Source of the DNA: Phocaeicola faecium | Lineage (GTDB): Bacteria > Bacteroidota > Bacteroidia > Bacteroidales > Bacteroidaceae | Direction: 5' to 3' | DNA length: 64,000 nt | NCBI RefSeq assembly: GCF_014837055.1 | Contig: NZ_JACSPQ010000001.1 | Span: 857,035-921,034 of the forward strand | Part shown: positions 1,697 through 57,426 of the stretch, in pieces | How positions within the stretch are numbered: position 1 is the stretch's first letter | Layout: every line of letters starts with the position of its first letter | The notes under the pieces: generated by a model | What the model saw: only the letters and a program-made list of their open reading frames with translations | What the model was told of the DNA's origin: nothing | Database searches by the model: none | Translations under genes and position numbers: made by a program

Positions 1697-3565
1697 TTAT
1701 CCTTCGATTTCACTCAGTTCGAGCCAGCGCATGGTCTTTTCGTCCAGCTCATCGTTGAGCACGGGCAGGCGTTTCGATTTCTCCGTCAGCTCGTCTACGC
1801 TCAGCGTACCGCTGCACAGGGCTTCTTCGATGGCTTTCTTTTCACTTTCAAGTCCGGCGATTTCCACCTCTAACTGTTCAAATTCCTTACGCTCCTTGAA
1901 GGTCATGCGGCGGCGTTCGTTGGTGCGGACGCGCTTGGTTTTTTCCTCCTTCGGCTTTGCCGCTGCTTTCCGCTCATGTTCTTCTTTGGCGAGCTTCCAC
2001 TCGCGGTAGTCGGTATAGTTGCCGGGGAAGTCGCGGATGTCTCCCTGCCCTTTGAACACCAACAGATGGTCTACCACCTTGTCCATAAAGTAACGGTCGT
2101 GGCTCACCACGATGACGCACCCCTTGAAGCTCTGCAAGTATTCTTCAAGCACTTGGAGGGTCACGATGTCGAGGTCGTTCGTAGGCTCGTCGAGCACGAG
2201 GAAGTTGGGGTTACGCATCAGTACCGTACACAGGTACAGCCGCCTGCGCTCTCCGCCGCTCAACTTATACACGTAGCTGTGTTGGGTTTCGGGCGTGAAA
2301 AGAAAATGTTGCAGGAACTGCGATGCCGTGAGCCGCTTGCCGTTGCCCAGCTCGATTACCTCGGCGATGTCGGTTATCACGTCGATTACCTTCATCTGTT
2401 CATCGAACTGCAATCCCTCTTGCGAGTAGTAGCCGAAGCGTACCGTTTCGCCGATGTCGAGCCGTCCGCTGTCGGGCTTCTCCAGCCCCATCAGAATCTT
2501 GATGAAGGTAGATTTCCCCGTACCGTTATTGCCCACGATGCCCATCTTTTCGTAGCGGGAAAAGATGTACGAAAAGTCGTCGAGTATCTTCAGGTCGCCG
2601 AAGCTCTTACACAGATGGTCTGCCTCGAATATCTTCGACCCGATGTAGGCAGCCTTCACGTCGAGCTTCACCTGCGCGTCGTACGTGCGGCGTTTCGCCA
2701 CTTTCTCCAGCTCGTAGAACGCCTCCTCGCGGTAGCGTGCCTTGTGTCCGCGCGCCTGCGGCATCCGGCGCATCCACTCCAGCTCGGTACGATACAGGTT
2801 ATTGGCACGGGCGGTCTCGGCATTTGCCGCATCGATGCGCTCTTGCCGTTTCTCTAAATAATAGCTGTAATTTCCTTTATACGAATAAATGCGGCGGTTA
2901 TCTATCTCGATGATTTCCGAACACACGCGGTCAAGAAAGTAACGGTCGTGCGTCACCATGAGCAGGCTGAGTTTCCCACGGTTGAGATACTCTTCGAGCC
3001 ACTCGGTCATGTCGAGGTCCAAGTGGTTGGTCGGCTCGTCCATTATCAGCAAGTCGGGTTCGGTAATCAGCACGTTGGCAAGTGCCACCCGCTTCAGTTG
3101 TCCGCCGGAGAGGTTCTTTATCGGCTGGTTGAAATCGCGAATCTTCAGTTGCGACAGAATCTGTTTCGCCCGCCGCTCGTAATCCCACGCCTTTTCATGC
3201 TCCATGCGCGCCAGCAGGTCGTCCATCCCCGGATTGCCCGGCGTTTCCATGCACCGCTCATACTCTTTTATCAGCTCCACCACAGGCGTGCCGTGATAAA
3301 AGCAGGCTTCGAGCACGGTCAGCTCGCCGGGATAGTGCGGACTCTGCTCCAGATAACCCACGCGCAGGTCTCGCCGATAAGTAATCTTGCCCTCATCATA
3401 CCCCTCCTTGTCTGCCAGAATGTTCAGCAGGGTGGTTTTCCCCGACCCGTTTTTGGCTATCAGCCCGATGCGCTGTCCTTCGGCAATGCCGAACGATATG
3501 TTCTGGAAAAGCACAAGGTCGCCAAACGATTTGGTCAGGTTTTCTACTTGTAAATACGGAACCAT
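1697..3565 (-). CDS. ABC-F family ATPase (Uup/EttA-like)
   Basis: 622 residues with two ABC ATPase domains and no membrane segments. The first domain has Walker A GLIAKNGSGKTT (about 34-45), signature LSGGQLKRVALA and Walker B LLIMDEPTNHLD. The second has Walker A GIVGNNGTGKST, signature LSGGERRRLYLC and Walker B FLVLDEPTNDLD. The linker between domains is charged, and a Lys/Glu-rich coiled coil occupies about 550-620, as in Uup-type members. ABC-F proteins act on the ribosome, and some give antibiotic protection; which applies here cannot be read from sequence. It is last in a leftward cluster and ends just before the terminator at 1639-1679. Confidence 0.85.
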   Translation of the reverse strand: MVPYLQVENLTKSFGDLVLFQNISFGIAEGQRIGLIAKNGSGKTTLLNILADKEGYDEGKITYRRDLRVGYLEQSPHYPGELTVLEACFYHGTPVVELIKEYERCMETPGNPGMDDLLARMEHEKAWDYERRAKQILSQLKIRDFNQPIKNLSGGQLKRVALANVLITEPDLLIMDEPTNHLDLDMTEWLEEYLNRGKLSLLMVTHDRYFLDRVCSEIIEIDNRRIYSYKGNYSYYLEKRQERIDAANAETARANNLYRTELEWMRRMPQARGHKARYREEAFYELEKVAKRRTYDAQVKLDVKAAYIGSKIFEADHLCKSFGDLKILDDFSYIFSRYEKMGIVGNNGTGKSTFIKILMGLEKPDSGRLDIGETVRFGYYSQEGLQFDEQMKVIDVITDIAEVIELGNGKRLTASQFLQHFLFTPETQHSYVYKLSGGERRRLYLCTVLMRNPNFLVLDEPTNDLDIVTLQVLEEYLQSFKGCVIVVSHDRYFMDKVVDHLLVFKGQGDIRDFPGNYTDYREWKLAKEEHERKAAAKPKEEKTKRVRTNERRRMTFKERKEFEQLEVEIAGLESEKKAIEEALCSGTLSVDELTEKSKRLPVLNDELDEKTMRWLELSEIEG

Positions 3566-8329: not shown

Positions 8330-8392
8330 ATGAAACAAACGATGGTAAATACATTCTTCTGGTGGCGCCTCTTACAACTCCATAGGTCGTAA
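8330..8392 (+). CDS. trpL: trp operon leader peptide
   Basis: A 20-codon reading frame between the trp promoter and a strong terminator. It begins ATG, ends TAA and carries two adjacent Trp codons (TGG TGG, 8360-8365) in the context FFWWRLL. Trp codons are rare, so a tandem pair in a very short ORF directly before an attenuator and trpB is the classical sign of a trp leader peptide. A helix between 8386-8394 and 8453-8461 (9 bp with two G-U pairs) can form only if the ribosome stops before the leader's end, and it would disrupt the terminator. Translation is not shown. Confidence 0.85.
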   Translation: MKQTMVNTFFWWRLLQLHRS

Positions 8393-8438
8393 GGGAAATC
8401 AGTCGTGTGTATATACCAATCGAATCAAGATATAGCGT

Positions 8439-8477
8439 AACGGGCTGTCGTACTTTACGGCAGCCCGTTTTTTTTTC
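8439..8477 (+). terminator. trp operon attenuator (intrinsic terminator)
   Basis: AACGGGCTG (8439-8447) pairs with CAGCCCGTT (8461-8469). The stem extends inward with a T-G pair and CG/CG to a 7-base loop, and a run of T follows immediately (8468-8476). It lies between the leader peptide and trpB, so it would stop operon transcription when Trp is plentiful. Confidence 0.9.
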
Positions 8478-8509
8478 GAATCAGAATCATACAAAATACA
8501 AATGCAACT

Positions 8510-42155: not shown

Positions 42156-43439
42156 TTACACATCTTTACCATGACACTTCTTATATTTTTTCCCACTTCC
42201 ACATGGACAAGGATCATTCCTTCCAACACCTTTAAATGCTTTATCTAATTTTTCCTTTTGACATTTTCGTTTTTCTTTTATTATACAGTCATCTATCATT
42301 GTTTTCAATTTATCATCAAGGAAAAAATTAGGATGCCATCCCTTTAATATCTTATCAAGAATAAAACTATCAAAGGCTGATGCAACTATACCTGGTATAA
42401 AACCAAACAAGCCTATTAAGTTCGTACCAATAAATCTTATTGGATTTATACATTTAGCCCCCAAAATATTCTGAACAGAATTCATAATTTCCTGTTGCAT
42501 CAATTGTTCTTCATAATCAGATTTCTGCATCCAATAACGAAAAATCTTCCCTTGAAAATCATTCCTTAATTTAAGGATATCATTTAAGCCGATAATTCCT
42601 TTTACAAATAATTCACCAAGATCAGGAAATCCTTTTTGTTGTTCAATTCGTATCAGAGCATCTGTTCCAACATGAATATCTTTACTAAATGCAGAAGCCG
42701 TCTTTCGGAGCATTAACTCATTTATTGCAGCATCCATTTTTATATTATCAATATTCAGCATTGACGCTAAAATCACTGACTTATTAAGCTCTTGTAAACG
42801 TATTAAGTCTGGAACATAATATTCTTTTTCTCCATCATATCGTATACGGCAAAAATTGGGATTAAAAATAGATTCGAGATTTTTAATGTCCCACTTAACT
42901 TCTTCTTTAATCTTCCTTTTTACTTCCTTTTCATCTCTTAAATTCACGCTATTCTCATCAATAAGATAAAGTATTATTCTCTTTTCTTGTTCATCAAATT
43001 TGTATTGATTCAGTATATTTTCAACGTAACTCCACCTATGAATATTACTCTCATTTATTTCTTCTTTTCCTAAAATATATGAAAAGAAATCATATTTGCA
43101 AATGTTATTCTCTGTGATTACAACGGGATTTAAATCTTGATCGGGGATTATATATAATATATGTAACCGTAACAATTCTTTAAGACCATTACATCCTAAA
43201 ATGGGAATAATATTCCATATACTATTCCCTTCAATATAGATTTTATCAAATGACAATAATGCTGTTATCAAATCTCTTGTCATTTGCAAAAACATCGCAG
43301 AACGATTGATTTTAAAATCATATCCGAATCGAACCTCAATTGTTTCTTGTTTATTATTAATCCGCTCTAAAGTTAGGTGTTGATAAACATTCGGATAATT
43401 TGTTATCAGTATTTTTGATTCATCCATATTTCCTGCCAT
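42156..43439 (-). CDS. Unrecognised protein with C-terminal SEC-C zinc motif, beside an R-M gene
   Basis: 427 residues, AT-rich like its upstream neighbour and starting 3 bases after it. The only recognised part is the C-terminus GRNDPCPCGSGKKYKKCHG (about 406-424), a SEC-C/SecA-type zinc-binding motif with ligands CxCx8CH. The N-terminal ~230 residues are alpha/beta with many Ile, Asn and Lys. A hydrophobic helix at about 340-360 (FIGTNLIGLFGFIPGIVASAF) could be buried or membrane-associated. SEC-C motifs occur at the ends of varied proteins, including many next to restriction systems. A role as defence accessory or effector is inference from position. Confidence 0.6.
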   Translation of the reverse strand: MAGNMDESKILITNYPNVYQHLTLERINNKQETIEVRFGYDFKINRSAMFLQMTRDLITALLSFDKIYIEGNSIWNIIPILGCNGLKELLRLHILYIIPDQDLNPVVITENNICKYDFFSYILGKEEINESNIHRWSYVENILNQYKFDEQEKRIILYLIDENSVNLRDEKEVKRKIKEEVKWDIKNLESIFNPNFCRIRYDGEKEYYVPDLIRLQELNKSVILASMLNIDNIKMDAAINELMLRKTASAFSKDIHVGTDALIRIEQQKGFPDLGELFVKGIIGLNDILKLRNDFQGKIFRYWMQKSDYEEQLMQQEIMNSVQNILGAKCINPIRFIGTNLIGLFGFIPGIVASAFDSFILDKILKGWHPNFFLDDKLKTMIDDCIIKEKRKCQKEKLDKAFKGVGRNDPCPCGSGKKYKKCHGKDV

Positions 43440-43442
43440 TAT

Positions 43443-46400
43443 TTATTTCAGATATCTATCAATAATAGCGTTCTTTCTGTTACCATAGCCATCAATCACA
43501 GACTGCGCCTTATCTATATCTGCCTCATACTCTTCTATTTGAGCAACAATAACATTTTGTTGTTCTAACGAAGGTACAGGTATTTCATATTGTTTTAATA
43601 ATCCAGCACTGATATTAGCTTGATTTATTGATTTTGACATAACCGAAAAACCATGTTCACGAATAGGTTTACTATTGAGTATATAATTAAGATACTTAGG
43701 ATTAAGCAAGTCTTTCTTATAATTTACACGAATTAAATAGCCGGCAAATATGGCAGGTCTATCACCTGTATATATAGCAGACTTGCCTACATGAACAGGA
43801 CTATTAGTTCTATTAAACAAAACATCATTTTCATGTAACATATATTGCGCAATATCATCTGGATCGTTGGAATATACAACGTCATCCCAAACAATCCTTC
43901 CGTTCTGTATATTTCCCATTCGCACTACAGCTACCTTACCAGTAGGTAAAGATTTGGAAGAAGTACCATATTCAAAAGACGAGCATAATGTTTCGAGCCT
44001 TTTATGTTCATACAAGCTAAAAACAGGCAGAATGATATCGTTAATCTTCTGATTCATAATATCAATTTGTGATATGGCGATGTCATATTCTTCATCTACT
44101 TGGTTGCATTCATTTACAATTCTATTTATAATATCCTCTGGAACTTTAGGTATTGGTATTCGTTCTATATCTTTCGGATATACATGAGGTTGTGCAGAAC
44201 CTTTTTGCAAATAAAAAATTTGATGCTGAATGCTTTTAAGAAAATTGTAAATAAAAAAAGTTTCTATATCATTCTTACCAACAACTGTAGTACAATCAGA
44301 TGCAAATATTGGTTCTTTCCATAAATTTACAAATCCCGCATTAGCTCCAGAAGCACTAATTGTGATAACATTCGCTTCCCTATTAGCCTCATTGTGATAA
44401 CCAGCATAATTTATTCCACCAGCAACGACTTTTATTTTTCCCTCTTTGCATTCAGCAGAAGTTATTGATTGTCCTTTTTGGATCAAAGCCGTATCTTTCA
44501 ATTTTAAAAGCTCATATTTACTTTGAACTTTAATTTCCCTATTAATAGAAGTTTTTATTACCTTATCAAACTCCACTCGAGAGAAATCAATCAAATCAGC
44601 AAAATTATTAATTGATACATACTCCTCACATTCAGCACTTATATTTAATTCTTCCCCAAGAAAATTATGACGGATAATCATATTGATTTTATTTTCATTA
44701 TGCAGATCGGCAGGGTCGAACAAAGGTGTCTGTATTTGGGCAATGCCTTTATTCCGATCCAATTCATTGTCTTCATCTGCATCACTTACGCCTATGTATT
44801 TAATACCTTCATTTCCTTTGCTACTGCTCCATTCATATCCTAAGAACTTTTTTATTCCAGCGGTTTTTGAGGGGCTTTTAACAATGACCACCGGTTGCTG
44901 ATTACTCATTGCCAACAAGAAGAAATATAGTTTTTCCTTTTCTATTGCTTTTATACTACTAATGATATATGAACGTAATTCCACTTTACGCATTTCTTCC
45001 GTATATTTGGACGTGATGCGTTTTGTCTTAATTTTCTTAGCACGAGAATCATTCTTGAACTTGTCAATGTAATCTTTAAACAAGTCTATTCCAAGTAAAG
45101 ATTCATTGGGAGTGGAAGAAAACAGAGTTTTATAATCTTCTACACTTACTCCGATTCGCTCACAATACCGTTCCAATAAATCAAGGTCTGCATACCGTTC
45201 ATCATGGGTAGTATTGCCCATAAACCATGCATCTACCCGATATTTATAGTGTACTGCCAAAGCCGGATTTTCACTTTTACGACGCAGAAATAAAGTTACC
45301 GTATTAGTACCTGTTTTGCCAAATGTTCCACTCCCCATTTCCACAATGGAAACTATATTAAAATATTTCAGAAGAATCTCACGACACTTGATATAAATAT
45401 TGCCATTGCTCAATACGCTTGAAGGCAAAATAATGGCGGCAACTCCCCCTGGACTTAGCAACTGCTTAGCTCGTTCTATAAAGAATGTTTCAATGCTGTT
45501 GTTCTTTGCCAAATCATTTACTTCTGAGCTTAACTCATATTTTTCTCTTTCCTCTAGACTCAAAGTTTCCAAAAACCCTTTTACACTATAAGGTGGGTTA
45601 GCAATCAAAACAGAAAAAGATGCCTCCTTAAGACCTACCTTATTAGATAATGCATCTGCATAAATGATATTAATCCCTTCCTGCCCATACATAAAAGAAG
45701 AAACTTTAGCTACTTTAGACAGACGATATTCTTTCTCTATGCCAAATATCTCCTTATAATATTCAGTCACCTCATCTCCTTTATATTGCTTAACAAATGA
45801 TCTTATTTGCTGAGCATATTCATTTAAGAAATGCCCGGCACCGCAAGCATAATCTATTACTTTAGGAATACTAGTACTATCCCTAATGATGCTTTCAAGC
45901 GGTAAAGAAGAAACCAAAAAACGCACAATAGGAGTAGGAGTAAAATATTGTCCTTCACTTTGCTTTACACCTTGGTCCAAAAAGCCTTCAAACAAATCCC
46001 CTAAAAATTGATTTTGCTCTTCCGTCTTTAAGCGGATATCTTGCAGCATTTTTACCACTTCTTTCAATATGACCGCATTCTGATTGAATAGCTGTTCATT
46101 GTGTACATCCAAGAAAGCAAAATCACTATTTGAGAAAAATTTCAATTGACGAAAATATTCCAATATCTTTTCTTTAATAGCATCGGGATCATTCTTTTGT
46201 ATCTTAAACGTTTCTTCAATTGTTGCATTATCTATATATGTCACTTCTTCGTTCAAATAGTCTTTCATACCTATCTGATACATCTTTTGCAATCGGTCTT
46301 GAAAATTATAATAATCATCATACGCTGCACCTTTCCATATAAACTGCAATTCTTTTCCATGACGAGTCTCATCTACTATCTTAACCAAAAACAGATTAAC

Positions 46401-47243
46401 CAACTTATCGAAAGCATTTTCACGCCCCGACACATTATATTGACGCATGATAGTTGCAAATTGATTATATTTCTTTTGAATAGCAGTAGCGTCAACCGTT
46501 TGGAGATCATCAATAGTGAATTTCTTTTTACCTATATGGAAAGGAACTGCTTCTTCCTCAAAAATACCTTTTGTATTATAATCCAATTGATAAGTATCTT
46601 TCCAAACTTGATAATATTCATCCCTGTTTCCACCTCTCCTTGTTACCTCCTCAAAACTCTTCAAATTTCTATTAGACAACAAATAATCTTGGTTATCCAA
46701 CATGGAAATAACATGATATGTCTTTTTACATACACCATCTACCCAATCGGATGTATAAAGACAAATATATTGAGCCTTTCGATAAGAATTATAATAATTG
46801 AATAATTGCCCACCGTTATGGAGCATTAATTTCCAAGCCTTATTAAATTCGTCATTCTCTGTTTGTTCCGTAGTCTTACACTCAATCAGCAAATATTCAT
46901 CACCATTATTGTCTTTCACTATAATATCACAGAACCCTCCTGTATCACCATGTCCTCCAGGCATCCCTTTCTCAAGAATAATTTGCTCTGGGTAATAACC
47001 TTTTTCCAAGAGACTGGCTACACATTCGAAAACAACAAAATTCTCAGGCTGATGAAAATTCTTTGTCGTTTCACGCTCAGCCTCTAATCTATCTGGATAT
47101 ATCAACCGCTTATTTGTGAAATCTACAGAAAGTATAGCACCTGATTCTTCGTATTTTTTGGAGTATATGATAGACACAGAATTATCTACCATTTCAAATC
47201 CTATTGCTTGCAATAAATTGTGAAAATTATCTTGTTTAATCAT
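43443..47243 (-). CDS. Single-chain restriction-modification-specificity protein (Type IIG/IIC-like)
   Basis: 1266 residues combining three activities. The N-terminus (about 65-130) has a PD-(D/E)xK nuclease pattern: Asp106 in GFCDIIV, then Glu121 and Lys123 in LIECKT. The middle (about 410-680) is an HsdM-like adenine methyltransferase with GQYFTPTPIVRFLV, SAM loop DYACGAGHFL (about 464-473) and NPPY (549-552). The C-terminus (about 930-1266) holds two HsdS-like target-recognition halves joined by coiled coils, including ALIQKGQSIT, IPIPKVPEDIINRIV and IPVPSLEQQNVIVAQIEEYEADID. There is no translocase motor. It should methylate and cut at a bipartite site alone. It is strongly AT-rich relative to the flanks. 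Confidence 0.85.
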   Translation of the reverse strand: MIKQDNFHNLLQAIGFEMVDNSVSIIYSKKYEESGAILSVDFTNKRLIYPDRLEAERETTKNFHQPENFVVFECVASLLEKGYYPEQIILEKGMPGGHGDTGGFCDIIVKDNNGDEYLLIECKTTEQTENDEFNKAWKLMLHNGGQLFNYYNSYRKAQYICLYTSDWVDGVCKKTYHVISMLDNQDYLLSNRNLKSFEEVTRRGGNRDEYYQVWKDTYQLDYNTKGIFEEEAVPFHIGKKKFTIDDLQTVDATAIQKKYNQFATIMRQYNVSGRENAFDKLVNLFLVKIVDETRHGKELQFIWKGAAYDDYYNFQDRLQKMYQIGMKDYLNEEVTYIDNATIEETFKIQKNDPDAIKEKILEYFRQLKFFSNSDFAFLDVHNEQLFNQNAVILKEVVKMLQDIRLKTEEQNQFLGDLFEGFLDQGVKQSEGQYFTPTPIVRFLVSSLPLESIIRDSTSIPKVIDYACGAGHFLNEYAQQIRSFVKQYKGDEVTEYYKEIFGIEKEYRLSKVAKVSSFMYGQEGINIIYADALSNKVGLKEASFSVLIANPPYSVKGFLETLSLEEREKYELSSEVNDLAKNNSIETFFIERAKQLLSPGGVAAIILPSSVLSNGNIYIKCREILLKYFNIVSIVEMGSGTFGKTGTNTVTLFLRRKSENPALAVHYKYRVDAWFMGNTTHDERYADLDLLERYCERIGVSVEDYKTLFSSTPNESLLGIDLFKDYIDKFKNDSRAKKIKTKRITSKYTEEMRKVELRSYIISSIKAIEKEKLYFFLLAMSNQQPVVIVKSPSKTAGIKKFLGYEWSSSKGNEGIKYIGVSDADEDNELDRNKGIAQIQTPLFDPADLHNENKINMIIRHNFLGEELNISAECEEYVSINNFADLIDFSRVEFDKVIKTSINREIKVQSKYELLKLKDTALIQKGQSITSAECKEGKIKVVAGGINYAGYHNEANREANVITISASGANAGFVNLWKEPIFASDCTTVVGKNDIETFFIYNFLKSIQHQIFYLQKGSAQPHVYPKDIERIPIPKVPEDIINRIVNECNQVDEEYDIAISQIDIMNQKINDIILPVFSLYEHKRLETLCSSFEYGTSSKSLPTGKVAVVRMGNIQNGRIVWDDVVYSNDPDDIAQYMLHENDVLFNRTNSPVHVGKSAIYTGDRPAIFAGYLIRVNYKKDLLNPKYLNYILNSKPIREHGFSVMSKSINQANISAGLLKQYEIPVPSLEQQNVIVAQIEEYEADIDKAQSVIDGYGNRKNAIIDRYLK

Positions 47244-47288
47244 GAATTTTATCTTAATAAATAATTACTATAAAGGTAATAATTCGAT

Positions 47289-48299
47289 TTATAATTCCGA
47301 CTTCCAGTTGTTTCTGTTAATCAAATTCACCACCACTTTTACCATCATGTCTTTTTCCTCCGTACGACTTTCGGCAATCATCAGCGTGAGGGCAACAAGG
47401 GTGTTGTCGGCTATGCGTTTCGTACCGTCCGGATTGTAAAGGATACCGTTGCCTGCCATAAACCATAAGAATAGCGTGGCGGCTATGCGCTTGTTGCCAT
47501 CGCTAAACGAATGATTCTTGGTTACGAGGTAAAGCAGCATGGCGGCTTTTTCTTCTACCGACGGATAGAGGTCTTGCCCGCCAAATGTCTGGTATATCTG
47601 CCCGATGGAGCTCTTGAACGAATCGTCTTTCTCATGGGCAAACCATTGGCTTCCACCGAACTTGGCTTTCAGTTCTTCGATAGCTTGCATGGCTCCTTCG
47701 TAGGTGGCATGAAACTTTGCTTCGTTCGTAGTCTGATCTACCGTCAGTTGTTGATAATCGTACTTATCCAATGTATCGAGGGCATAAGCATAATCGGAAA
47801 CAACTTCTACCAAATTGAGGGCATCATCGGAAGTCAATGTTTCTTGTGCCTTGACCGTCCTGCCTAAGACGGCGACCAACTGTTTCAGTTCCGTGTAACG
47901 TTGCTCCGTCAAAGCCTTATTGACAGCATAGCCTTTCACCAAATAATCTTTCAGAACCTTGTTTGCCCAACGACGGAATTCAACACCCTTTTTAGATTTT
48001 ACACGATAACCTACGGATATAATCACATCCAGATTATAGAATCTTACATCATGTGTCTGGCTTTTCTCTGCCATAGCCCCGTGTTGAGTGGTTGTCGCAA
48101 ATTTTGCGACAACCACTTCTCCCATTAATTCTTCACGAATAGCATTATCAATATGCTTTCGAATAGTTTTAGAATCCCTTCCGAATAATTCTGCCATTTG
48201 GTTTACATTCAACCACACAGTTTCCTTGTCTATTTTAACATCCAACTGTGTTTCTCCATCAGCAGAACGATATATTACAATTTTATCATTCAAGTTCAT
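47289..48299 (-). CDS. RhuM-Fic/Doc fusion protein
   Basis: 336 residues. The N-terminal RhuM domain (about 1-125) has VWLNVNQMAELFGRDSKTIRKHIDNAIREE, FATTTQHGAMAEKSQTHDVRFYNLDVIISVGYRVKSKKGVEFRRWAN. The C-terminal Fic/Doc domain (about 150-330) has HSFSDGNKRIAATLF (263-277), close to the HxFx(D/E)GN(K/G)R active-site loop. Fic proteins transfer AMP or phosphate to targets; the GNKR form is closer to Doc. RhuM genes are common inside Type I R-M loci. Its start overlaps the stop of a small HTH-like ORF by 4 bases. Base composition is less AT-rich than the R-M gene. Confidence 0.85.
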   Translation of the reverse strand: MNLNDKIVIYRSADGETQLDVKIDKETVWLNVNQMAELFGRDSKTIRKHIDNAIREELMGEVVVAKFATTTQHGAMAEKSQTHDVRFYNLDVIISVGYRVKSKKGVEFRRWANKVLKDYLVKGYAVNKALTEQRYTELKQLVAVLGRTVKAQETLTSDDALNLVEVVSDYAYALDTLDKYDYQQLTVDQTTNEAKFHATYEGAMQAIEELKAKFGGSQWFAHEKDDSFKSSIGQIYQTFGGQDLYPSVEEKAAMLLYLVTKNHSFSDGNKRIAATLFLWFMAGNGILYNPDGTKRIADNTLVALTLMIAESRTEEKDMMVKVVVNLINRNNWKSEL

Positions 48300-48859: not shown

Positions 48860-49903
48860 TCAGTTATTTTCCGGACGCAACTTGCGGACGGTAACCGCAG
48901 TCTGCCACATTTCGCTTTCGCGCAATGCTTTCAGTTCGGCATTCAGCTTTTCGCGGTAGTCAGGCTGAGAGTTGCTGTCGATTGAAATCTGTGCTTCGTG
49001 ACCTGATTTTACGCTTTCGTACAGTTTCTGCATAACGGGTTTGATAGCATCGTGGAACGGAGTCATCCAATCAAGCGCACCGCGCTGAGCGGTGGTAGAA
49101 CAGTTGGCGTACATCCAGTCCATACCGTTTTTAGCGAACAGCGGCATCAGTGACTGAGTAAGCTCTTCCACCGTTTCGTTAAATGCTTCGGATGGTGTAT
49201 GTCCGTTTTCACGAAGCACTTCGTATTGAGCCAGCAGCAAACCTTGAATGGCTCCCATCAACGAACCGCGTTCGCCGGTAAGGTCGGAAGTTGCTTCGCG
49301 CTGGAAGGTAGTTTCAAACAAGTAGCCTGAGCCGATGCCGATACCCAGTGCGATGGTGCGGTCGTAAGCCTTTCCCGTAGCATCCTGATAGATGGCGTAA
49401 GAAGAGTTCAAGCCGCGTCCTTCGAGGAACATGGTACGCAAAGATGTACCCGAACCCTTCGGGGCAACCATGATAACGTCAATGTCGGTAGGAGGAACCA
49501 CGCCCGTACGGTCGTTCCATGTGATGGCGAATCCGTGAGAGAAATACAAAGCCTTTCCTGCAGTAAGATACGGCTTGATGGTAGGCCATACAGAGATTAC
49601 GGCTGCATCTGAAAGCAGACACATGATGATGGTACCGCGCTGGCAAGCCTCTTCGATGCTGAACAGCGTTTCGCCCGGCACCCATCCGTCGGCTACTGCC
49701 TTTTCGTAAGTCTTGCCCTGACGCTGACCTACGATTACGTTGAAACCATTATCGCGCAAATTCAATGATTGTCCCGGACCCTGTACGCCGTATCCGATAA
49801 CTGCAATCGTTTCATTCTTTAATACTTCACGTGCTTTTTCCAAAGGAAACTCTTCGCGGGTTACTACGTTTTCGATAACTCCGCCAAAATTCAGTTGTGC
49901 CAT
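48860..49903 (-). CDS. ilvC: Ketol-acid reductoisomerase
   Basis: 347 residues, class I length. The NADP-binding loop is AVIGYGVQGPGQSLNLRDNG, the KARI domain has YFSHGFAITW, VAPKGSGTSLRTMFLEGRGLN and ATSDLTGERGSLMGAIQG, and the Mg-binding acidic residues are present in the last. It isomerises and reduces acetolactate and acetohydroxybutyrate in valine and isoleucine synthesis. It is last in the ilv operon, 56 bases after the thioesterase gene, and is followed by a strong terminator. Confidence 0.96.
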   Translation of the reverse strand: MAQLNFGGVIENVVTREEFPLEKAREVLKNETIAVIGYGVQGPGQSLNLRDNGFNVIVGQRQGKTYEKAVADGWVPGETLFSIEEACQRGTIIMCLLSDAAVISVWPTIKPYLTAGKALYFSHGFAITWNDRTGVVPPTDIDVIMVAPKGSGTSLRTMFLEGRGLNSSYAIYQDATGKAYDRTIALGIGIGSGYLFETTFQREATSDLTGERGSLMGAIQGLLLAQYEVLRENGHTPSEAFNETVEELTQSLMPLFAKNGMDWMYANCSTTAQRGALDWMTPFHDAIKPVMQKLYESVKSGHEAQISIDSNSQPDYREKLNAELKALRESEMWQTAVTVRKLRPENN

Positions 49904-49959: not shown

Positions 49960-50703
49960 TTACTTAAATATCAGTTTGCTGCGAACCACCACTTCCGAGT
50001 CGTTCTTCTTGACCTCAATGTCATACTCATTGTCGCCCGTCTGCTGGCGATAAAACGTCAGCTTGTCGCCGTAATAACTTTCGGCTACATACGCCATTTC
50101 GAAACGGTGTACGCGCTTTTCGCGAAACGTTTGCAGCGGGAAGAGATCGAGGATGTGTTCGATGTACTTGATGCTGTTTACATGACCGTTGATGTCGATG
50201 TCGCTGTACTTTGCCCGATGCTCTCCCGCCACGGTGTCTTCGCTAACCTTAATCCGGCTCGGTTTGGCTATCGGACAGTCTTTGTCGCAGATATACTCCG
50301 TTATCGACCCGTTATGCAAGGTCAGCAAATCGGCGGGCTTACGGGTTTCCATGCTAATCATCGCCCAAATCGAACGCGCATAGCCTATCGGTCTCCCATC
50401 GGCATTCAGAATGGCAAAGTTGCGGTCGGTAAACAAACGGTATACGTTCTCCACCCACGTTTGAACGCTGAACGATTCATACGCTTTCGGCATTTCTTCC
50501 ATCTCGACAGCCAGACGCGACAACACCCATGTATAACGGTTTTCATTCAACGTGGCGATTCCGAAGCCACGCTCCTCGGCATGGAATCCGGCGCAATTCA
50601 GCAGGTGATTTCCTAAAACCCCCATCGTCAGCCTTTCGTTAAAATCGACATGGAAAGGTTCAGCCACGAAATGATACGTCCCGATTTTGTTTTCTTCAGA
50701 CAT
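49960..50703 (-). CDS. Acyl-ACP thioesterase (hotdog fold) inside the ilv operon
   Basis: 247 residues: VAEPFHVDFNERLTMGVLGNHLLNCAGFHAEERGFG, then WVLSRLAVEMEEMPKAYESFSVQTWVENVYRLFTDRNFAILNADGRPIGYARSIWAMISMETRKPADL, and a second hotdog half with HRAKYSDIDINGHVNSIKYIEHILDLF. The catalytic Asn-His segment (NGHVNS) is present. It fits PF01643, which frees fatty acids from acyl carrier protein. It lies between ilvN and ilvC, which suggests a link between branched-chain precursors and iso-fatty acids; that is inference. Confidence 0.85.
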   Translation of the reverse strand: MSEENKIGTYHFVAEPFHVDFNERLTMGVLGNHLLNCAGFHAEERGFGIATLNENRYTWVLSRLAVEMEEMPKAYESFSVQTWVENVYRLFTDRNFAILNADGRPIGYARSIWAMISMETRKPADLLTLHNGSITEYICDKDCPIAKPSRIKVSEDTVAGEHRAKYSDIDINGHVNSIKYIEHILDLFPLQTFREKRVHRFEMAYVAESYYGDKLTFYRQQTGDNEYDIEVKKNDSEVVVRSKLIFK

Positions 50704-50789: not shown

Positions 50790-51341
50790 CTAAAGCCCTT
50801 TCTTATAGCGTTCTTCACGGTGAGCCAAATATTCGTTCACACGCTCGAAACAGCTTGTCGACACGGCAATACGTCCCGAACGGACGAACTGCAACACGCA
50901 ATTCAGCGCCTTCAGTTCCTGATAAAGCGAGGTAATATCGTCGCTCATGCCCGTCAGTTCCACGATGGCAAACACCGGATTAACTTCTACGATGTGTGCA
51001 CTGTAACGGCGGACCACTTTCGAGGCTTCGGGATTCGACTGAAATTCAGGCATCGAAACCTTATACATTGCCACTTCACGCTGGAATATTTCGCTGTCGG
51101 TGAAATAATGCGCCTGAATAACGTCTAATTTCTTCTCAATTTGTTTCACTACTTTTTCGATGATATCTCGCGTAGTCCAGCACGTAATGGTGTACTTATG
51201 TACGCCCTTGATAGACGATGCCGAAACATTCAGGCTCTCGATGTTCAACTGCCGGCGAGTAAACACCGCCGTTACCTGATTCAGAATACCGGCGAGGTTT
51301 TCAGAGTGAACAATAATAGTATATAATGTTTTGTTTTCCAT
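50790..51341 (-). CDS. ilvN: Acetolactate synthase regulatory (small) subunit
   Basis: 183 residues from the ATG at 51341; an in-frame GTG three codons upstream would overlap ilvB. An N-terminal ACT domain (TLYTIIVHSENLAGILNQVTAVFTRRQLNIESLNVSAS) is followed by a second ACT-like region (EVNPVFAIVELTGMSDDITSLYQELKALNCVLQFVRSGRIAVS). It binds valine for feedback control and activates IlvB. It begins 2 bases after the ilvB stop. Confidence 0.93.
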   Translation of the reverse strand: MENKTLYTIIVHSENLAGILNQVTAVFTRRQLNIESLNVSASSIKGVHKYTITCWTTRDIIEKVVKQIEKKLDVIQAHYFTDSEIFQREVAMYKVSMPEFQSNPEASKVVRRYSAHIVEVNPVFAIVELTGMSDDITSLYQELKALNCVLQFVRSGRIAVSTSCFERVNEYLAHREERYKKGL

Positions 51342-51343
51342 AA

Positions 51344-53041
51344 TCAACACTCCATTAACATATAGTTAACCGAACTGCCCGGAGGCGTCATCGGCAATAC
51401 GTTTCCTTCTTCCACTACACAGGCTTCCAAGAGAAATGCCCCGTCGGTTTCAAGCATCTCGCGGATGGCATCGTTCAGCTCGGCACGTTCTATTACGCGG
51501 CGCGACTTGATGCCGTATGCTGCTGCTATCTGCATGTAGTCGGGGTTCATCATCGGCGTAAACGAATAACGGCGATTGAAGAACATAGCCTGCCACTGGC
51601 GCACATTGCCCAGATAATTATTATTCAGCAAGATAATCTTCACCGGGGCTTTCTGTTCCATCACCGTGCCCAGCTCTTGCATGGTCATCTGCAAGCCACC
51701 GTCTCCCATAAACACACACACCGTGCGGTCGGGGCGGCCGAATGTAGCACCTATGGCTGCCGGAAGTCCGAACCCCATCGTTCCCATGCCGCCGGAAGTT
51801 ACCACGCTCCGTTCTTTCGTATATTTAAAGTACCTACATGCCATCATCTGGTTTTGTCCCACATCCGTTACCAGTATGGCTTCGTTGTTCGTTGCCTCGC
51901 TTACGGCGTGAACCACTTCTCCCATGTTCAAAGGACCTTCTTTAGGGAACACTTCTTTCTCGATAACCGCAGCATACTCTTTTTCTTCGTACGTCTTGAA
52001 ACTGTCAATCCACTCTTTATGCTCTTGATGCTGGATTAATTCGGTAAGCAAAGCCAATGTACGTTTACAGTTGCCCAAAACCGGTACATCTACCGCCACA
52101 TTCTTTCCTATTTCCGACGGGTCAACATCCAGATGAATAACTTTCGCCTGTTTTGCATAGGTATCCAACTTTCCTGTTACCCGGTCGTCGAAGCGCATAC
52201 CCACGGCTATCAACACATCACACTCGTTGGTTTTCACATTCGGTCCCAAGTTGCCATGCATACCCAACATACCTTTATTTAAAGGATGCTCCGTTGGCAA
52301 CGCGGAAAGTCCCAACAGCGTACACCCGCAAGGAATATCCGCCTTTTCAATAAAGGCACGAAGTTCGGCTTGCGCATTTCCCAACTCTACCCCCTGACCA
52401 ACCAGCGCCAACGGCCTCTTGGCTTCATTAATCAGCGCAACCGCCTCGGCTACTGCCTTCGGGTCGGTTTCAGGGTCGGGGTCATAACTGCGGATGAAAT
52501 CCACCTTCATCGGTTCAAACTCAGTAAGTTCCTGTTGGGCATTCTTGGCAAAATCAAGGACAACCGGTCCGGGACGTCCGCTCCTCGCTATATAAAACGC
52601 ACGTGATACCGCCCACGCCACATCCTCGGCACGGCGAATCTGATAGCTCCATTTCGAAATAGGCTGTGTAATACCCACAAGGTCTACCTCCTGAAACGCA
52701 TCCGTGCCCAACAATCCGGCTCCCACCTGTCCGGCAATCACCACAATCGGTGTGCTGTCTATCATGGCATCGGCAACGCCCGTTATCGTATTCGTGGCTC
52801 CCGGCCCACTTGTTACCAAGCAAACGCCGACTTCCCCCGAAACCCGGGCAAATCCCTGAGCAGCATGTGCAGCTCCCTGTTCGTGACGCACCAATATATG
52901 ATTTAATTTATTCCGATGGTCGTAAAGTGCATCAAACACCGGCATGATAGCTCCGCCCGGATAACCGAAGATGGTTTTTACCCCCTCGTGTTCCAGCGAA
53001 CGCATCAATGCTTCCGACCCTGTTATTTTTTCTTTCGACAT
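51344..53041 (-). CDS. ilvB: Acetolactate synthase catalytic (large) subunit
   Basis: 565 residues of the ThDP enzyme family. The PYR domain has the activating Glu in HILVRHEQGAAHAAQGFARVSGEVGVCLVTSGPGATNTI; a central FAD-binding domain follows. The PP domain has FMGDGGLQMTMQELGTVMEQKAPVKIILLNNNYLGNVRQWQ, the Mg-ThDP motif GDG...N. The gene symbol could equally be ilvI/ilvG. It makes acetolactate and acetohydroxybutyrate. It starts 23 bases after ilvD. Confidence 0.95.
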   Translation of the reverse strand: MSKEKITGSEALMRSLEHEGVKTIFGYPGGAIMPVFDALYDHRNKLNHILVRHEQGAAHAAQGFARVSGEVGVCLVTSGPGATNTITGVADAMIDSTPIVVIAGQVGAGLLGTDAFQEVDLVGITQPISKWSYQIRRAEDVAWAVSRAFYIARSGRPGPVVLDFAKNAQQELTEFEPMKVDFIRSYDPDPETDPKAVAEAVALINEAKRPLALVGQGVELGNAQAELRAFIEKADIPCGCTLLGLSALPTEHPLNKGMLGMHGNLGPNVKTNECDVLIAVGMRFDDRVTGKLDTYAKQAKVIHLDVDPSEIGKNVAVDVPVLGNCKRTLALLTELIQHQEHKEWIDSFKTYEEKEYAAVIEKEVFPKEGPLNMGEVVHAVSEATNNEAILVTDVGQNQMMACRYFKYTKERSVVTSGGMGTMGFGLPAAIGATFGRPDRTVCVFMGDGGLQMTMQELGTVMEQKAPVKIILLNNNYLGNVRQWQAMFFNRRYSFTPMMNPDYMQIAAAYGIKSRRVIERAELNDAIREMLETDGAFLLEACVVEEGNVLPMTPPGSSVNYMLMEC

Positions 53042-53064: not shown

Positions 53065-54864
53065 CTATACGATTCTCACCCCACCCTTGTCTGCCGAGCT
53101 TACCATGCTGGCATAAGCGCGTAAGGCTTTCGATACTTCCCGGTTTCGAGTCAGCGGAGCCATCGGACGGGCAGCCAGCTCTTCATCGCTCAGCCGCACA
53201 TTGATGGTACGGTTGGGAATATCTATTTCTATAATGTCTCCGTCTATTATCTTTCCGATGTTTCCGCCTGCTGCCGCTTCAGGGGAAATATGCCCGATGC
53301 TCAGTCCCGAAGTTCCTCCGCTAAAACGTCCGTCGGTTATCAATGCACATTCTTTACCCAAATGTTTCGATTTGATATACGATGTAGGATATAACATTTC
53401 CTGCATTCCCGGACCTCCTTTGGGGCCTTCGTGAGTAATCACCACTACATCGCCGCTCACTACCTTTCCTCCCAAGATACCTTCACAGGCAGCTTCCTGA
53501 GAGTCGAACACCTTAGCCGGACCAGCAAACTTCCAGATGCTTTCGTCTACGCCTGCGGTTTTCACCACACAGCCGTCTTGAGCTATATTTCCCTTCAACA
53601 CAGCCAGTCCGCCGTCTTTGCTGTACGCATGTTGCAGGTCACGGATACATCCTGTCGCACGGTCGGTATCCAGTTCCCGATAAACATTATTCTGCGAACC
53701 GAGGGCGATATTGAACTTCCCGCCCGGAGCGCTGGTGTAAATACGCAAAGCCTCTGCATCCACCTCCGGTTTACAAACATCGTATCGGGTAATGGCCTCT
53801 GCCAGTGTAGTACCATCTACACGGTGAACCGACGTATCGAGCAGTCCGCCTTTTGCCAACTCGCCCAAGATGTTCAGGATACCTCCTGCGCGGTTCACAT
53901 CCTGAATGTGGTATTTCTGTGTATTGGGAGCTACCTTACAGAGGCAAGGAACACGGCGTGACAGCATGTCAATGTCGTCCATCTTAAAATCAACTTCCGC
54001 TTCATGGGCTATCGCCAGAAGATGAAGCACCGTGTTAGTCGACCCTCCCATCGCTATATCCAGCGTCATGGCATTCAAGAAAGCCTGACGAGTGGCTATG
54101 CTTCGCGGAAGTACGCTGTCATCGCCTTCTTCGTAATACTTAAAGGCATTTTTTACTATCAGTGCAGCCGCATCTTTAAAGAGCTGTTTCCGATTAATAT
54201 GAGTAGCCACCACCGTTCCGTTTCCCGGCAATGCCAACCCGATAGCCTCATTCAGACAGTTCATCGAATTGGCTGTAAACATGCCCGAACAGCTTCCGCA
54301 TCCGGGACAGGCATGACGTTCGATTTCGGCAACATCGGCATCGCTCACCGTGGGGTCTGCCGACTTTATCATCGCATCAATAAGGTCAAGATGCTGTCCG
54401 TTCCATTCGCCAGCCTCCATCGGGCCTCCCGACACGAACACCGTAGGGATATTCAAACGCATGGCAGCCATCAGCATCCCCGGCGTGATTTTATCGCAAT
54501 TAGAGATACACACCATCGCATCGGCTTTATGGGCATTGACCATGTACTCCACACTGTCGGCAATCAGGTCGCGTGAGGGCAACGAATACAGCATACCGTC
54601 ATGGCCCATCGCAATGCCATCGTCGATGGCTATGGTGTTAAACTCTGCGGCAAAGCAGCCTAACTTTTCTATTTCGGCTTTTACCTGCTGACCGATTTCG
54701 TGCAGATGCGTATGTCCGGGAACAAACTGCGTAAACGAGTTTACCACAGCTATAATCGGTTTACCCATCATTTCTTTCTTCATTCCGTTTGCCACCCACA
54801 AGGCTCTTGCACCTGCCATGCGGCGACCTTCCGTACTCATCGAACTGCGTAACTGATGTTTCAT
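53065..54864 (-). CDS. ilvD: Dihydroxy-acid dehydratase
   Basis: 599 residues. The iron-sulfur ligands are in [11 protein letters not shown] and [33 protein letters not shown], and the end has SDGRFSGG-like [26 protein letters not shown]. It dehydrates dihydroxyvalerate and its C6 homologue to the keto acids of Val, Leu and Ile. The Fe-S cluster is oxygen-sensitive. It is the first structural gene after the leader and attenuator. Confidence 0.95.
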
Positions 54865-54881
54865 CTCTTTCTCTCTTTTTC

Positions 54882-54920
54882 AATTAAAAAGCCTCTCTCA
54901 TCATCGGTGAGAAAGGCTTT
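54882..54920 (-). terminator. ilv operon attenuator (intrinsic terminator)
   Basis: On the minus strand AAAGCCTTTCTC (54920-54909) pairs with GAGAGAGGCTTT (54899-54888) with one mismatch and a 9-base loop; TTTTT follows. It lies 24 bases before ilvD. Its 5' arm overlaps the partner of an alternative antiterminator helix. Confidence 0.88.
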
Positions 54921-54966
54921 CATACATATCTTTATTTCACAACTACATACGCGAAACTTCCTCACC
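54906..54966 (-). promoter_or_regulatory. ilv antiterminator helix
   Basis: GGTGAGGAAG (minus, 54966-54957), inside leader codons 26-29, can pair over 10 bp with one G-U to CTTTCTCACC (54915-54906), which is the 5' arm and loop of the attenuator. The two helices exclude each other. Confidence 0.75.
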
Positions 54967-55041
54967 TCTTGGTGTCATCACCACGACGCGAATAATAATA
55001 TGCAGGACTGCCAAGTTTGCCAATGTATGAGTTGATGTCAT
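54943..55041 (-). CDS. ilvL: ilv operon leader peptide
   Basis: 32 residues. After MTSTHTLANLAVLH come three Ile codons (ATT x3), an Arg, then three Val codons (GTC GTG GTG), and the frame ends TAG. Upstream are Leu (TTG x2, CTG) and Val codons, so all three branched-chain amino acids are represented. It lies about 23 bases after a consensus promoter start and before an attenuator and ilvD. A ribosome stalled at the Ile/Val run would leave codons 26-29 free to form the antiterminator; one that reaches the stop would block it. This is classical leader-peptide attenuation by design; expression is not shown. Confidence 0.88.
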   Translation of the reverse strand: MTSTHTLANLAVLHIIIRVVVMTPRGEEVSRM

Positions 55042-55070
55042 AATTAAATATCTGTTTTGTTTTACAAATG

Positions 55071-55101
55071 CAAAGGTAAAGTCTTTTTTATTATAAACAA
55101 A
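55071..55101 (-). promoter_or_regulatory. Promoter of the ilv operon
   Basis: On the minus strand TTTG (55098-55101), a 19-base spacer, and TACCTTTG (55071-55078): a full -33/-7 match. The remainder of the 55102-55183 gap shows no gene. Confidence 0.82.
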
Positions 55102-55183
55102 TAAATTGACACTTTTTTTTCGAATAAACTAATATTCGTAAGTATTCATTTGTTTTTATTGTCAGTTTATCAATAAGCTCATC

Positions 55184-55231
55184 ATAAAAAAGCCTGCCCG
55201 CCTTCTGCAAGATGCAGGCAGGCGGGCAGGC
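55184..55231 (-). terminator. Terminator of the S46 peptidase pair
   Basis: GCCTGCCCGCC and GGCGGGCAGGC form an 11-bp stem (55192-55202 with 55221-55231); further inner pairing is possible. A T run follows on the minus strand. Confidence 0.88.
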
Positions 55232-55257
55232 ATATCAAGATGATATCTGTTTTTGTC

Positions 55258-57426
55258 TTAACGGATAATCGTCATTTCGTCTATCAGATGACGCGCTCCG
55301 GCATATTTGTCTATAATAAATAATGTGTAGCGAATGTCAACACAAGCGGCGCGTTGCAACTGGGGATTATAAGCGATATCGCCTGTCAGCCCTTCGTAGT
55401 TGCGGTCGAAGCCGGTACCGATAAGTTCACCTTTCGCATTAAACACCGGCGAACCCGAATTACCTCCGGTATTGTCGGTTGCCGTAGCAAAGCAAACCGG
55501 CATTCTGCCATCGGGCATCGCATACTCGCCATAATCTTTCTTTTCGTAAAGTTCTTTCAGCTTAGCGGGCACTACAAACTCCGGATTATCGGGGTCTTCT
55601 TTTTCCATCACGCCTTTTAAGGTAGTGTAATATAAATACTCCACACCGTCAACAGGTTCGTACGAGCCTATTTTACCGTAAGTCAGACGCAACGTAGAGT
55701 TGGCATCCGGATAAATAGCTTTCCCCTGTCGGCGACGCAGTTCCAACATACCTGCCACCCACGTTTTATGGGCAAGGTTGTAGGCGTTCGTTTCAGCCTT
55801 CATAGCGTCGCTCGTAGCCTGATATCCTTCTTTTACCGACTTGGCGTAGATTACCATCGGGTCATTTTCCAACGTTTCCGCAGCAGGGCGTTTCAAGAAT
55901 TTCTCCAACGCTTCGGCACTGCTGAAAATGGAACGGGTGAAACAAGCGTCTACAAACGCATCGGTACTGCCCTGATATTTATCGTCAATCAGACGGAACA
56001 CACTGATGCGTTGCGCAGCCGGTATCAAACGGGCATAAAGCGCAATAAGCTGTTTCGACACCTTGCAGTCTACCGACGGACTGTAATCTTTATTGAAGAA
56101 TTTCTTTCCTGCCTCGCGGAGCTGTTGGGTTTCTTCGGCTATCGCTTTTTTGTTTTTCTGCTGCAAAGCCTCCAAAAGGTTATCGGTATTGGGGATTTCA
56201 GAAAACTCCGTACCCAACATCAGCGCTTCATAGATGGCTTGCTGGTGATAAACCGCATCCCGACGTTTTGCCACGATGTCTTTAATGGTTTCGTATGCTT
56301 TAAGGTAATCATCATTACCAGTCTCGCGTCCGAACTCAAGCAAGCTCTCCTGCTGTTTTTTCTTCGTATTCAACACCTTCAGCCGTACCAGTCCCTCGTT
56401 CATGCCAATGGCGTTTTTCCAATAATTGGCAGACGAAGCATACTTGGCAGCATACTGGATGCGGGTTTTGTCATCTTTGCTCATCTCCTCACCCAACACG
56501 CGCAAACGCACTCCGCGCACGGTGTCGCGCATGAAGTTGGTGGTTTGCATACGTTCTTCCACTTCATCGCTTATCATATAACGCCAGTTGCGTCCGGGGA
56601 ATCCCATGACGAAAGTAAAGTCGCCCTCTTTCACACCCCGCAGGTTGATGGCGATGTGTTTCTTTACGCGCAGCGGAACATTATCGGCACTGTATTCTGC
56701 CGGTTTTCCGTCTTTCGACGCATAAATACGGAAGATAGAAAAGTCGCCGCAGTGACGGGGCCACATCCAGTTATCCGTATCGGCTCCGAATTTTCCGATA
56801 GAAGAAGGAGGAGCTCCTACCATGCGCACATCCTTATAAACGGTCTTCACAAACAGATAGTATTTGTTGGCACCGTAAAACGGCTTCAGTTCGAGAACAG
56901 TAAACGTATCGACAGCAATGTTTTCCTGTTCGGCAAAACGCGATGCCACCGTAGACAGGTACGACGGAGACAGATAGTTCAACCCTTCCGGGTCTTCGTC
57001 TTTAGCCAACTGTTCGCGCACGTAATCTGTCACGTCAAGGATACGGTCGATAAACGTCACCGTAAGCCCGCTGCAAGGAAGCTCCTGCGAGCGGTTCATA
57101 GCCCAAAAGCCATCCGTCAGGTAATCATGTTCCACCGAGCTGTGTTGCTGGATGTATTTATACCCGCAGTGATGGTTGGTGAGCACCAAACCTTCTGCCG
57201 AAATGACTTCGCCCGTACAGCCGCCTCCGAAGTGGACAACGGCATCTTTCAGGCTGATGCTGTCGGGGCAATATATCTGGTCGATACCGATATCCAGTCC
57301 CAGCTCACGCATTGCCGCCGCATTTTGCTGCTTCAGGTCGGTCAGCATCCACATGCCTTCATCGGCACGCGCCGTAGAGACCGCCAACGAGCCCAGCAAA
57401 GAGCACAATAAAATCGCTTTTTTCAT
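55258..57426 (-). CDS. S46 dipeptidyl peptidase, Dpp11-like (Asp/Glu-specific predicted)
   Basis: 722 residues with a signal peptide (MKKAILLCSLLGSLAVSTARA) and the S46 start DEGMWML. Catalytic His is in VLTNHHCGY (near 85), the catalytic Asp in [17 protein letters not shown] (DTDNW), and the nucleophile Ser657 in [10 protein letters not shown]. In Porphyromonas gingivalis S46 enzymes the residue 18 after the Ser sets specificity: Arg in DPP11, Gly in DPP7. Here it is Arg675 (GTGFDRNYEG), so removal of dipeptides with acidic P1 residues is predicted. It acts in the periplasm. It follows its paralogue by 16 bases. Confidence 0.88.
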   Translation of the reverse strand: MKKAILLCSLLGSLAVSTARADEGMWMLTDLKQQNAAAMRELGLDIGIDQIYCPDSISLKDAVVHFGGGCTGEVISAEGLVLTNHHCGYKYIQQHSSVEHDYLTDGFWAMNRSQELPCSGLTVTFIDRILDVTDYVREQLAKDEDPEGLNYLSPSYLSTVASRFAEQENIAVDTFTVLELKPFYGANKYYLFVKTVYKDVRMVGAPPSSIGKFGADTDNWMWPRHCGDFSIFRIYASKDGKPAEYSADNVPLRVKKHIAINLRGVKEGDFTFVMGFPGRNWRYMISDEVEERMQTTNFMRDTVRGVRLRVLGEEMSKDDKTRIQYAAKYASSANYWKNAIGMNEGLVRLKVLNTKKKQQESLLEFGRETGNDDYLKAYETIKDIVAKRRDAVYHQQAIYEALMLGTEFSEIPNTDNLLEALQQKNKKAIAEETQQLREAGKKFFNKDYSPSVDCKVSKQLIALYARLIPAAQRISVFRLIDDKYQGSTDAFVDACFTRSIFSSAEALEKFLKRPAAETLENDPMVIYAKSVKEGYQATSDAMKAETNAYNLAHKTWVAGMLELRRRQGKAIYPDANSTLRLTYGKIGSYEPVDGVEYLYYTTLKGVMEKEDPDNPEFVVPAKLKELYEKKDYGEYAMPDGRMPVCFATATDNTGGNSGSPVFNAKGELIGTGFDRNYEGLTGDIAYNPQLQRAACVDIRYTLFIIDKYAGARHLIDEMTIIR

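Follow-up and report, generated by a model that had tools for sequence, protein, structure and literature searches.

The ilvGMEDA and ilvBN operons of Escherichia coli are controlled by leader-peptide attenuators. Attenuation of ilv genes through an upstream open reading frame (uORF) in E. coli and Corynebacterium glutamicum is cited in the available part of PMC10272879, where uORF control of ilvB in Corynebacterium is also described and is proposed for the ilvB-OMG and Leptospira motifs. For Staphylococcus aureus, a firmicute, the available part of PMC5794164 describes an ilv attenuator peptide that is Leu-rich and acts together with CodY. Within the Bacteroidota, the accessible text of PMC9723704 gives strong clues of leader-peptide attenuation before amino-acid operons of Flavobacterium psychrophilum, and that of PMC7366714 reports that long 5' UTRs of B. 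thetaiotaomicron contain sORFs resembling leader peptides, and calls post-transcriptional control in this species sparsely known. A comparative study by Lopatovskaya et al. (2010) is cited in the available parts of PMC4833913 and PMC10272879, and the main text of PMC2965389, as far as it was available, has no match for 'Bacteroid' or 'ilv'. An earlier note on the DNA described below knew of no experimental account of such a leader in Bacteroidetes. This stands to the extent that no experimental account of a Bacteroidales ilv attenuator was identified in the part of the literature covered, but leader peptides as such had already been suggested for the phylum (PMC9723704 and PMC7366714, in the parts available).

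We analysed a window of 64,000 nucleotides of Phocaeicola faecium DNA (the whole stretch, to which all positions refer), in which a short leader precedes an ilv operon. Ribosome-mediated transcription attenuation of ilvDBN-(thioesterase)-ilvC is by far the best explanation of this leader, with a probability that we put at about 0.93. The ORF with its run, the helices with their conservation and covariation, the promoter and the operon are supported by sequence and comparison, and the features are the following:

55071..55101, minus strand: promoter of the Bacteroidetes primary-sigma (sigma-ABfr) type (TTTG at 55101..55098, N19, TAccTTTG at 55078..55071)
54943..55041, minus strand: leader peptide ORF of 32 codons, MTSTHTLANLAVLHIIIRVVVMTPRGEEVSRM (from the sequence; conserved in relatives)
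55024..55038, minus strand: 5' side of the proposed outer helix, codons 2-6 (duplex and swap tests)
54979..54999, minus strand: run of Ile15-17, Arg18 and Val19-21 (sequence and alignment)
54961..54992, minus strand: predicted 1:2 hairpin (single-sequence fold and consensus fold of 19 relatives)
54957..54966, minus strand: region 2, GGTGAGGAAG, codons 26-29, the 5' arm of the antiterminator (10-bp pairing, covariation)
54937..54951, minus strand: 3' side of the proposed outer helix, CGTATGTAGTTGTGA; it follows region 2 directly and spans the leader stop codon (mixed evidence)
54906..54915, minus strand: region 3, CTTTCTCACC, partner of region 2 or partly of region 4 (duplex test, covariation)
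54886..54921, minus strand: attenuator, an intrinsic terminator hairpin with TTTTT (core stem GAAAGCCTTTC / GAGAGGCTTTT, dG -18.5)
53065..54864, minus strand: ilvD, dihydroxy-acid dehydratase, first gene of the operon (TIGR00110, 784 bits)
51344..53041, minus strand: ilvB, acetolactate synthase large subunit (TIGR00118)
50790..51350, minus strand: ilvN, acetolactate synthase small subunit (TIGR00119)
49960..50703, minus strand: thioesterase-like gene, between ilvN and ilvC in the operon (open reading frame)
48860..49903, minus strand: ilvC, ketol-acid reductoisomerase (TIGR00465)

With the attenuators of E. coli ilvGMEDA and ilvBN the locus shares a short Ile/Val/Leu leader, a competing antiterminator and intrinsic terminator and a cognate biosynthetic operon. 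Unlike in E. coli, the promoter is of the Bacteroidetes type, no Shine-Dalgarno sequence was seen by eye ahead of the window's leader ORF, region 2 is part of the ORF and comes a few codons behind the run, and an outer helix is proposed; the two are likened by architecture. The uORF of the Corynebacterium ilvBNC/ilvB-II motif (PMC10272879 and PMC11857589, in the parts available) is likewise a leader rich in branched-chain residues before an ilv operon, with a terminator and an antiterminator, whereas its operon begins with ilvB and belongs to another phylum, a comparison of the features as described. The S. aureus peptide is similar in that a leader peptide controls branched-chain amino acid synthesis, but differs in its Leu-rich composition, its partnership with CodY and its phylum. 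The F. psychrophilum clues concern the same phylum, the same proposed mechanism and amino-acid operons, although the available text of PMC9723704 names no ilv leader or helices ('ilv' occurs 0 times in its main text).

The order on the minus strand from 55101 to 54882 is promoter, 32-codon ORF, region 2 inside the last codons of that ORF and intrinsic terminator, and the gene order behind it is ilvD-ilvB-ilvN-thioesterase-ilvC, also on the minus strand. The nearest named relative of IlvD is that of an uncultured Phocaeicola (94% identity). An NCBIfam search with the gene between ilvN and ilvC (49960..50703) returned no family; presumably it encodes an acyl-ACP thioesterase. Downstream of ilvC, the stretch 42156-48299 (minus strand) contains a gene whose weak DOC-like match stays below the cut-off and a large gene that by eye resembles a restriction-modification enzyme, possibly a defence insertion.

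The ORF has a start and a stop, and codons for end products of the operon (Ile and Val) are clustered in it: Leu at codons 7, 10 and 13, Ile at 15-17 and Val at 19-21. Region 2 and region 3 form an antiterminator of 10 bp with one G-U pair (54966..54957 with 54915..54906; duplex dG -17.8, shuffle p 0.014). Region 3 consists of part of the 5' arm of the terminator and the first bases of its loop, and the antiterminator and the terminator are mutually exclusive in the window (both use region 3). The terminator hairpin spans 54921..54887, its T-run TTTTT lies at 54890..54886 and it ends about 22 nt before ilvD. The predicted 1:2 hairpin pairs the end of the Ile run, the Arg and the Val codons with codons 23-28 and sequesters the first part of region 2. 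As a whole the leader RNA folds with z = -3.65, none of 200 shuffles being equally stable. The earlier note had described a consensus promoter followed by a 32-codon ORF, Leu codons followed by three Ile and three Val codons, and a 10-bp pairing of codons 26-29 with the 5' arm of the attenuator; all three descriptions were confirmed, with the refinement that the partner of region 2 includes the first loop bases.

The promoter fits the Bacteroidetes sigma-ABfr consensus as quoted in the available part of PMC7366714, and transcription is predicted to start near 55065. In 36 of 45 leaders (the set defined below) the 110 nt before the leader ATG contain a match to TTTG-N17-22-TAnnTTTG, compared with a mean of 0.16 and a maximum of 3 in mononucleotide shuffles, which served as the null. 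A promoter and terminator scanner did not pick up the attenuator; it listed E. coli-type promoter matches, which are probably irrelevant.

ILV-run leaders proved to be common upstream of ilvD in the phylum. Counting as a leader any ATG-started ORF of 12-45 codons upstream of ilvD in which at least 6 of 8 residues are Ile, Leu or Val, we found one in 45 of 74 Bacteroidota loci, versus a mean of 3.35 and a maximum of 7 in dinucleotide shuffles, 2/74 on the antisense strand and none in 15 loci of other phyla (phylum taken from record names or by kinship). The 74 loci are those left after the duplicates L003, L006 and L008 were dropped (identical to L002, L018 and L010, respectively, over the aligned stretch). 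The recurrence of Ile/Val runs, for which the earlier note proposed an alignment as a check, is borne out by these 45/74 loci. In the remaining 29, many of them Prevotella-like or from the rumen, no ATG-started leader scoring at least 6 was found; some of these have a leader that begins with a codon other than ATG or that scores 5. Prevotella-like or rumen ilvD loci that lack an ATG-started ILV leader are, for instance, L019, L022, L026, L031, L039 and L050, and the control may have been lost, replaced or missed there. Outside the Bacteroidales, an ILV score of at least 6 was reached by 13 of 40 upstream regions, taken from further families of the class and the phylum, a count on a longer stretch with no null, from which nothing is claimed. 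Leader DNA was matched in 11 of 12 genomes of the same genus.

For 46 leaders the analysis was carried further: 44 of the 45 scoring at least 6, and L011 and L090 (score 5, homologous by eye); L088 (score 6, a 13-residue peptide) was left out. A terminator follows 45 of the 46 by a relaxed rule and 40 by a stricter one, and the set of 45 leaders used hereafter is the 46 minus L047, which has no terminator. The antiterminator duplex outdid spacer shuffles at p<=0.05 in 35 of 45 leaders when the relaxed terminator rule was used and pairing with the loop was allowed. A first, stricter pass in which only the stem arm could pair had given a weak 22 of 40 at the same threshold; after this result was known, the pairing was widened to the loop, since some of region 3 lies there, and the terminator rule was relaxed. 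In 38 of 45 leader-bearing loci a terminator lay no more than 160 nt from ilvD, as it did in 11 of the 28 other Bacteroidota loci (counted with L088 and without L047) and in 1 of 15 loci of other phyla.

These counts bear on the simplest alternative, namely that the hairpin serves the upstream peptidase gene alone, as its terminator, and that the ORF is a chance frame. Intergenic intrinsic terminators are common and the peptidase gene (57426..55258) reads in the same direction as the ilv operon, but it has a GC-rich hairpin and T-run of its own at about 55236-55186, ahead of the ilv promoter, and neither a chance ORF nor a plain terminator agrees with ILV-run ORFs in 45/74 loci, a terminator behind 45/46 leaders and a covarying antiterminator. 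We regard this explanation as extremely unlikely.

Covariation was scored on a sequence-only alignment of the 45 leaders. The antiterminator pairs were paired in 87.9% of 438 cells (47-63% in slid antiterminator controls) with 18 double changes versus 4.2 expected by shuffling, and for the terminator pairs the figures are 95.9% of 491 cells and 29 double changes (5.9 by shuffling), so that the compensatory changes which the earlier note looked for in the helices occur in both, across families. Half of the antiterminator's double changes (9/18) fall in alignment columns 101 and 102, two of its ten pairs, with bases outside the counted terminator pairs. Outside Bacteroides/Phocaeicola, moreover, region 2 prefers its own region 3 over a swapped one (-16.2 versus -12.1 kcal/mol, p 0.0002, the permutation floor), while no preference was detectable in the close set (p 0.16). 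In the latter the helices hardly vary, with a double change in 1 of 24 consensus pairs (n=19), and because of this low variation the covariation signal comes from the distant families.

The close set consists of 19 leaders of the Bacteroides/Phocaeicola group, which were picked because a leader had been found. Loss of the ORF or of both helices in close relatives, which the earlier note considered fatal to its reading, was not seen: an ORF with a branched-chain run and the terminator are present in 19/19, and the antiterminator duplex reached p<=0.05 in 14/19 and stayed above 0.05 in 5/19. The commonest run among the 18 relatives besides the window is exactly II-R-VVVV (8/18), the rest being variants; relative to it, 3 nt are inserted in the window's leader, which adds an Ile codon, and Met replaces the fourth Val, as it does in L009 and L015. 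Up to the end of the run, the 19 leaders differ in length by whole codons throughout, the inserted Ile codon of the window among them, and this is what a translated frame should show; immediately behind the run, a difference of 1 nt (alignment column 77) shifts the stop codon in some close rows. RNAalifold recovered the terminator and the 1:2 hairpin from the 19 leaders, with no pair of the 1:2 hairpin changed on both sides.

In other phyla, ilv operons are also controlled by tRNA- or metabolite-sensing riboswitches, and a T-box, a ppGpp riboswitch or an amino-acid aptamer might work the terminator here, the ORF being incidental. A ppGpp riboswitch is mentioned in the available part of PMC10272879. 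An Rfam scan of 54000-56000 on both strands, with E up to 1, found no riboswitch or T-box and gave only four weak matches, all to eukaryotic families, at 55124-55249; moreover, most columns conserved in the close set belong to the ORF, to region 2 or to the arms of the terminator, so that this alternative seems highly improbable. Another possibility is that the leader ORF acts on ilvD by translational coupling or reinitiation instead of through termination, in line with a peak of leader genes 11-14 bp before structural genes in Bacteroidetes reported in the available part of PMC4833913. Here, however, the leader stop and the ilvD start are about 78 nt apart with a strong terminator between them, and a terminator is kept in 45/46 leaders; coupling is therefore very unlikely.

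For attenuation by a translating ribosome, the position of region 2 relative to the run matters, and we placed a stalled ribosome with the last run codon in its A site, covering 12 nt from the first base of that codon. Region 2 then starts 0-5 nt past the ribosome edge in 41 of 45 leaders (the search for region 2 began at this edge, and a helix that starts at 0 may have been cut short by it). A ribosome at the stop codon covers half of region 2 or more in 43/45. Switching with ribosome position was modelled by folding the RNA cut before region 4, with the RNA behind the ribosome left out. In the window, the modelled antiterminator probability was 0.0001 in naked RNA, at most 0.11 with A-site codons 2-6, 0.77-0.81 at codons 7-22, 0.61 at codon 23 and less than 0.1 from codon 24 onwards up to the stop. 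Averaged over the 45 leaders it was 0.60 for naked RNA, 0.80 with the ribosome at the run and 0.05 with the ribosome at the stop codon, the drop at the stop being partly built into the masking. The interpretation of the earlier note, that a stall at Ile/Val favours read-through and completion favours termination, is supported by the recurring runs and by the compensatory changes in both helices. Protection of region 2 by the 1:2 hairpin in untranslated RNA may occur in the window, whose naked leader combines the predicted hairpin with an antiterminator probability of 0.0001, but region 2 is not predicted to be hidden in the naked RNA of the average leader (mean 0.60 over 45 leaders). By a looser measure, region 3 was held upstream equally in naked and stalled RNA (0.56 and 0.57).

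The model lacks specificity for the run: a ribosome stalled as many as 14 codons upstream of the last run codon gives about the same antiterminator probability (0.77-0.81). The permissive codons 7-22 include Leu7, Leu10, Val12, Leu13, Ile15-17 and Val19-21. The idea that the Leu codons, being far upstream, would escape sensing was rejected, since the per-codon model frees the antiterminator in the window throughout codons 7-22, and this leaves the likelihood of the mechanism as it was; as Leu7, Leu10 and Leu13 fall in this permissive stretch, Leu may, according to the model, be sensed besides Ile and Val. In a full-length equilibrium fold with a stalled ribosome, the terminator of the window still wins (modelled stem probability 0.97), so that read-through must rest on the order of synthesis, i.e. 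on a kinetic decision. Such a decision is assumed for the classical attenuators as well.

We infer leader translation, stalling, termination, read-through and the amino acids sensed, and the events would run as follows. RNA polymerase would start at the TTTG/TAnnTTTG promoter and a ribosome would begin the 32-codon leader. With enough charged tRNA, the ribosome would reach the stop and cover much of region 2 (codons 26-29), region 3 would pair with region 4 to form the intrinsic terminator, and transcription would stop about 22 nt short of ilvD. If the supply of charged Ile-tRNA or Val-tRNA (perhaps Leu-tRNA) is low, stalling would occur on Leu, Ile or Val codons between 7 and 21, and the stalled ribosome would open the structures that hold region 2; the freed region 2 would capture region 3 ahead of the synthesis of region 4, and transcription would continue into the operon. 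If no ribosome is present, the folded leader would hold region 2 and the terminator would form.

The proposed outer helix has a more varied record. When folded naked, many leaders seem by eye to form a single long hairpin: their first codons pair with the segment that directly follows region 2, and this segment is often CGTGTATGTA-like. For the window's leader alone the helix is not significant (duplex p 0.42; folding context p 0.89). The duplex test gave p<=0.05 in 3/19 close and 7/26 distant leaders, with combined p values of 0.0010 and 0.000086, respectively. In the folding context, the close leaders had 12.7 pairs versus 11.7 in shuffles (p<=0.05 in 1/19, combined p 0.44) and the distant ones 10.0 versus 8.0 (5/26, combined p 0.019). 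In the swap test, the ilv leaders favoured their own partner (-9.2 versus -6.9 kcal/mol swapped over 45, p 0.0002), both in the close (p 0.0024) and in the distant subset (p 0.0002).

Leaders of similar appearance precede leu, trp and his genes of the same genome, and behind each of them lies a terminator-like hairpin:

L097:1295-1470: Leu-rich leader MNRLFLHILLCGLINLLETPVGSESCAYNC before leuA, with an antiterminator GGAAGTGAG/CTCACTTCC and a terminator
L093, about 2050-2410, minus strand: His leader MNITATYHVHHHYLTFMR (HVHHH) before hisG, with a terminator-like hairpin (own genome only)
Window 8330-8500, plus strand: Trp leader MKQTMVNTFFWWRLLQLHRS (WW) before trpB, with a terminator-like hairpin

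The DNA of the leuA leader has a match in 11/12 genomes of the same genus and that of the trpB leader in 12/12. A parser found the leu leader in 12/12 loci and a WW leader in 10/13 (own genome included), and in the remaining three trp loci a WW leader was seen on later inspection. The outer helix in its folding context was not significant for the his, the leu or the trp leaders; the swap test gave p 0.015 for trp (9/13 fetched loci usable) and an unclear p 0.10 for leu (11/12 loci usable). Directly behind region 2, a CGTGTATGTA-like stretch is found repeatedly in ilv, leu, trp and his leaders (the patterns used for motif counts after region 2 were chosen after looking); it may pair with the first codons or be a polymerase pause site.

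In three Marinifilaceae loci (L067, L068 and L070, each at 2480-3000), two ILV leaders stand in series before ilvD, each with a terminator-like hairpin (by eye) and the second without a TAnnTTTG promoter within 110 nt; both leaders are apparently part of one transcript. There is an even chance, in our estimate, that the Bacteroidales have a regime of ilv, leu, trp and his attenuators with an architecture of its own, in which an extra outer helix would close the untranslated leader as a pause or protector, initiation would not use a Shine-Dalgarno sequence and the Marinifilaceae tandem would be a two-step gate.

The mechanism itself is classical; what this analysis contributes is a probable ilv attenuator, conserved in an order for which only hints were found in print. 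The control of amino-acid synthesis is little known in the Bacteroidota, a main group of the human gut, and the conserved predicted ilv attenuator, together with its leu, trp and his look-alikes, provides testable candidates for sensors of amino-acid supply in gut bacteria.
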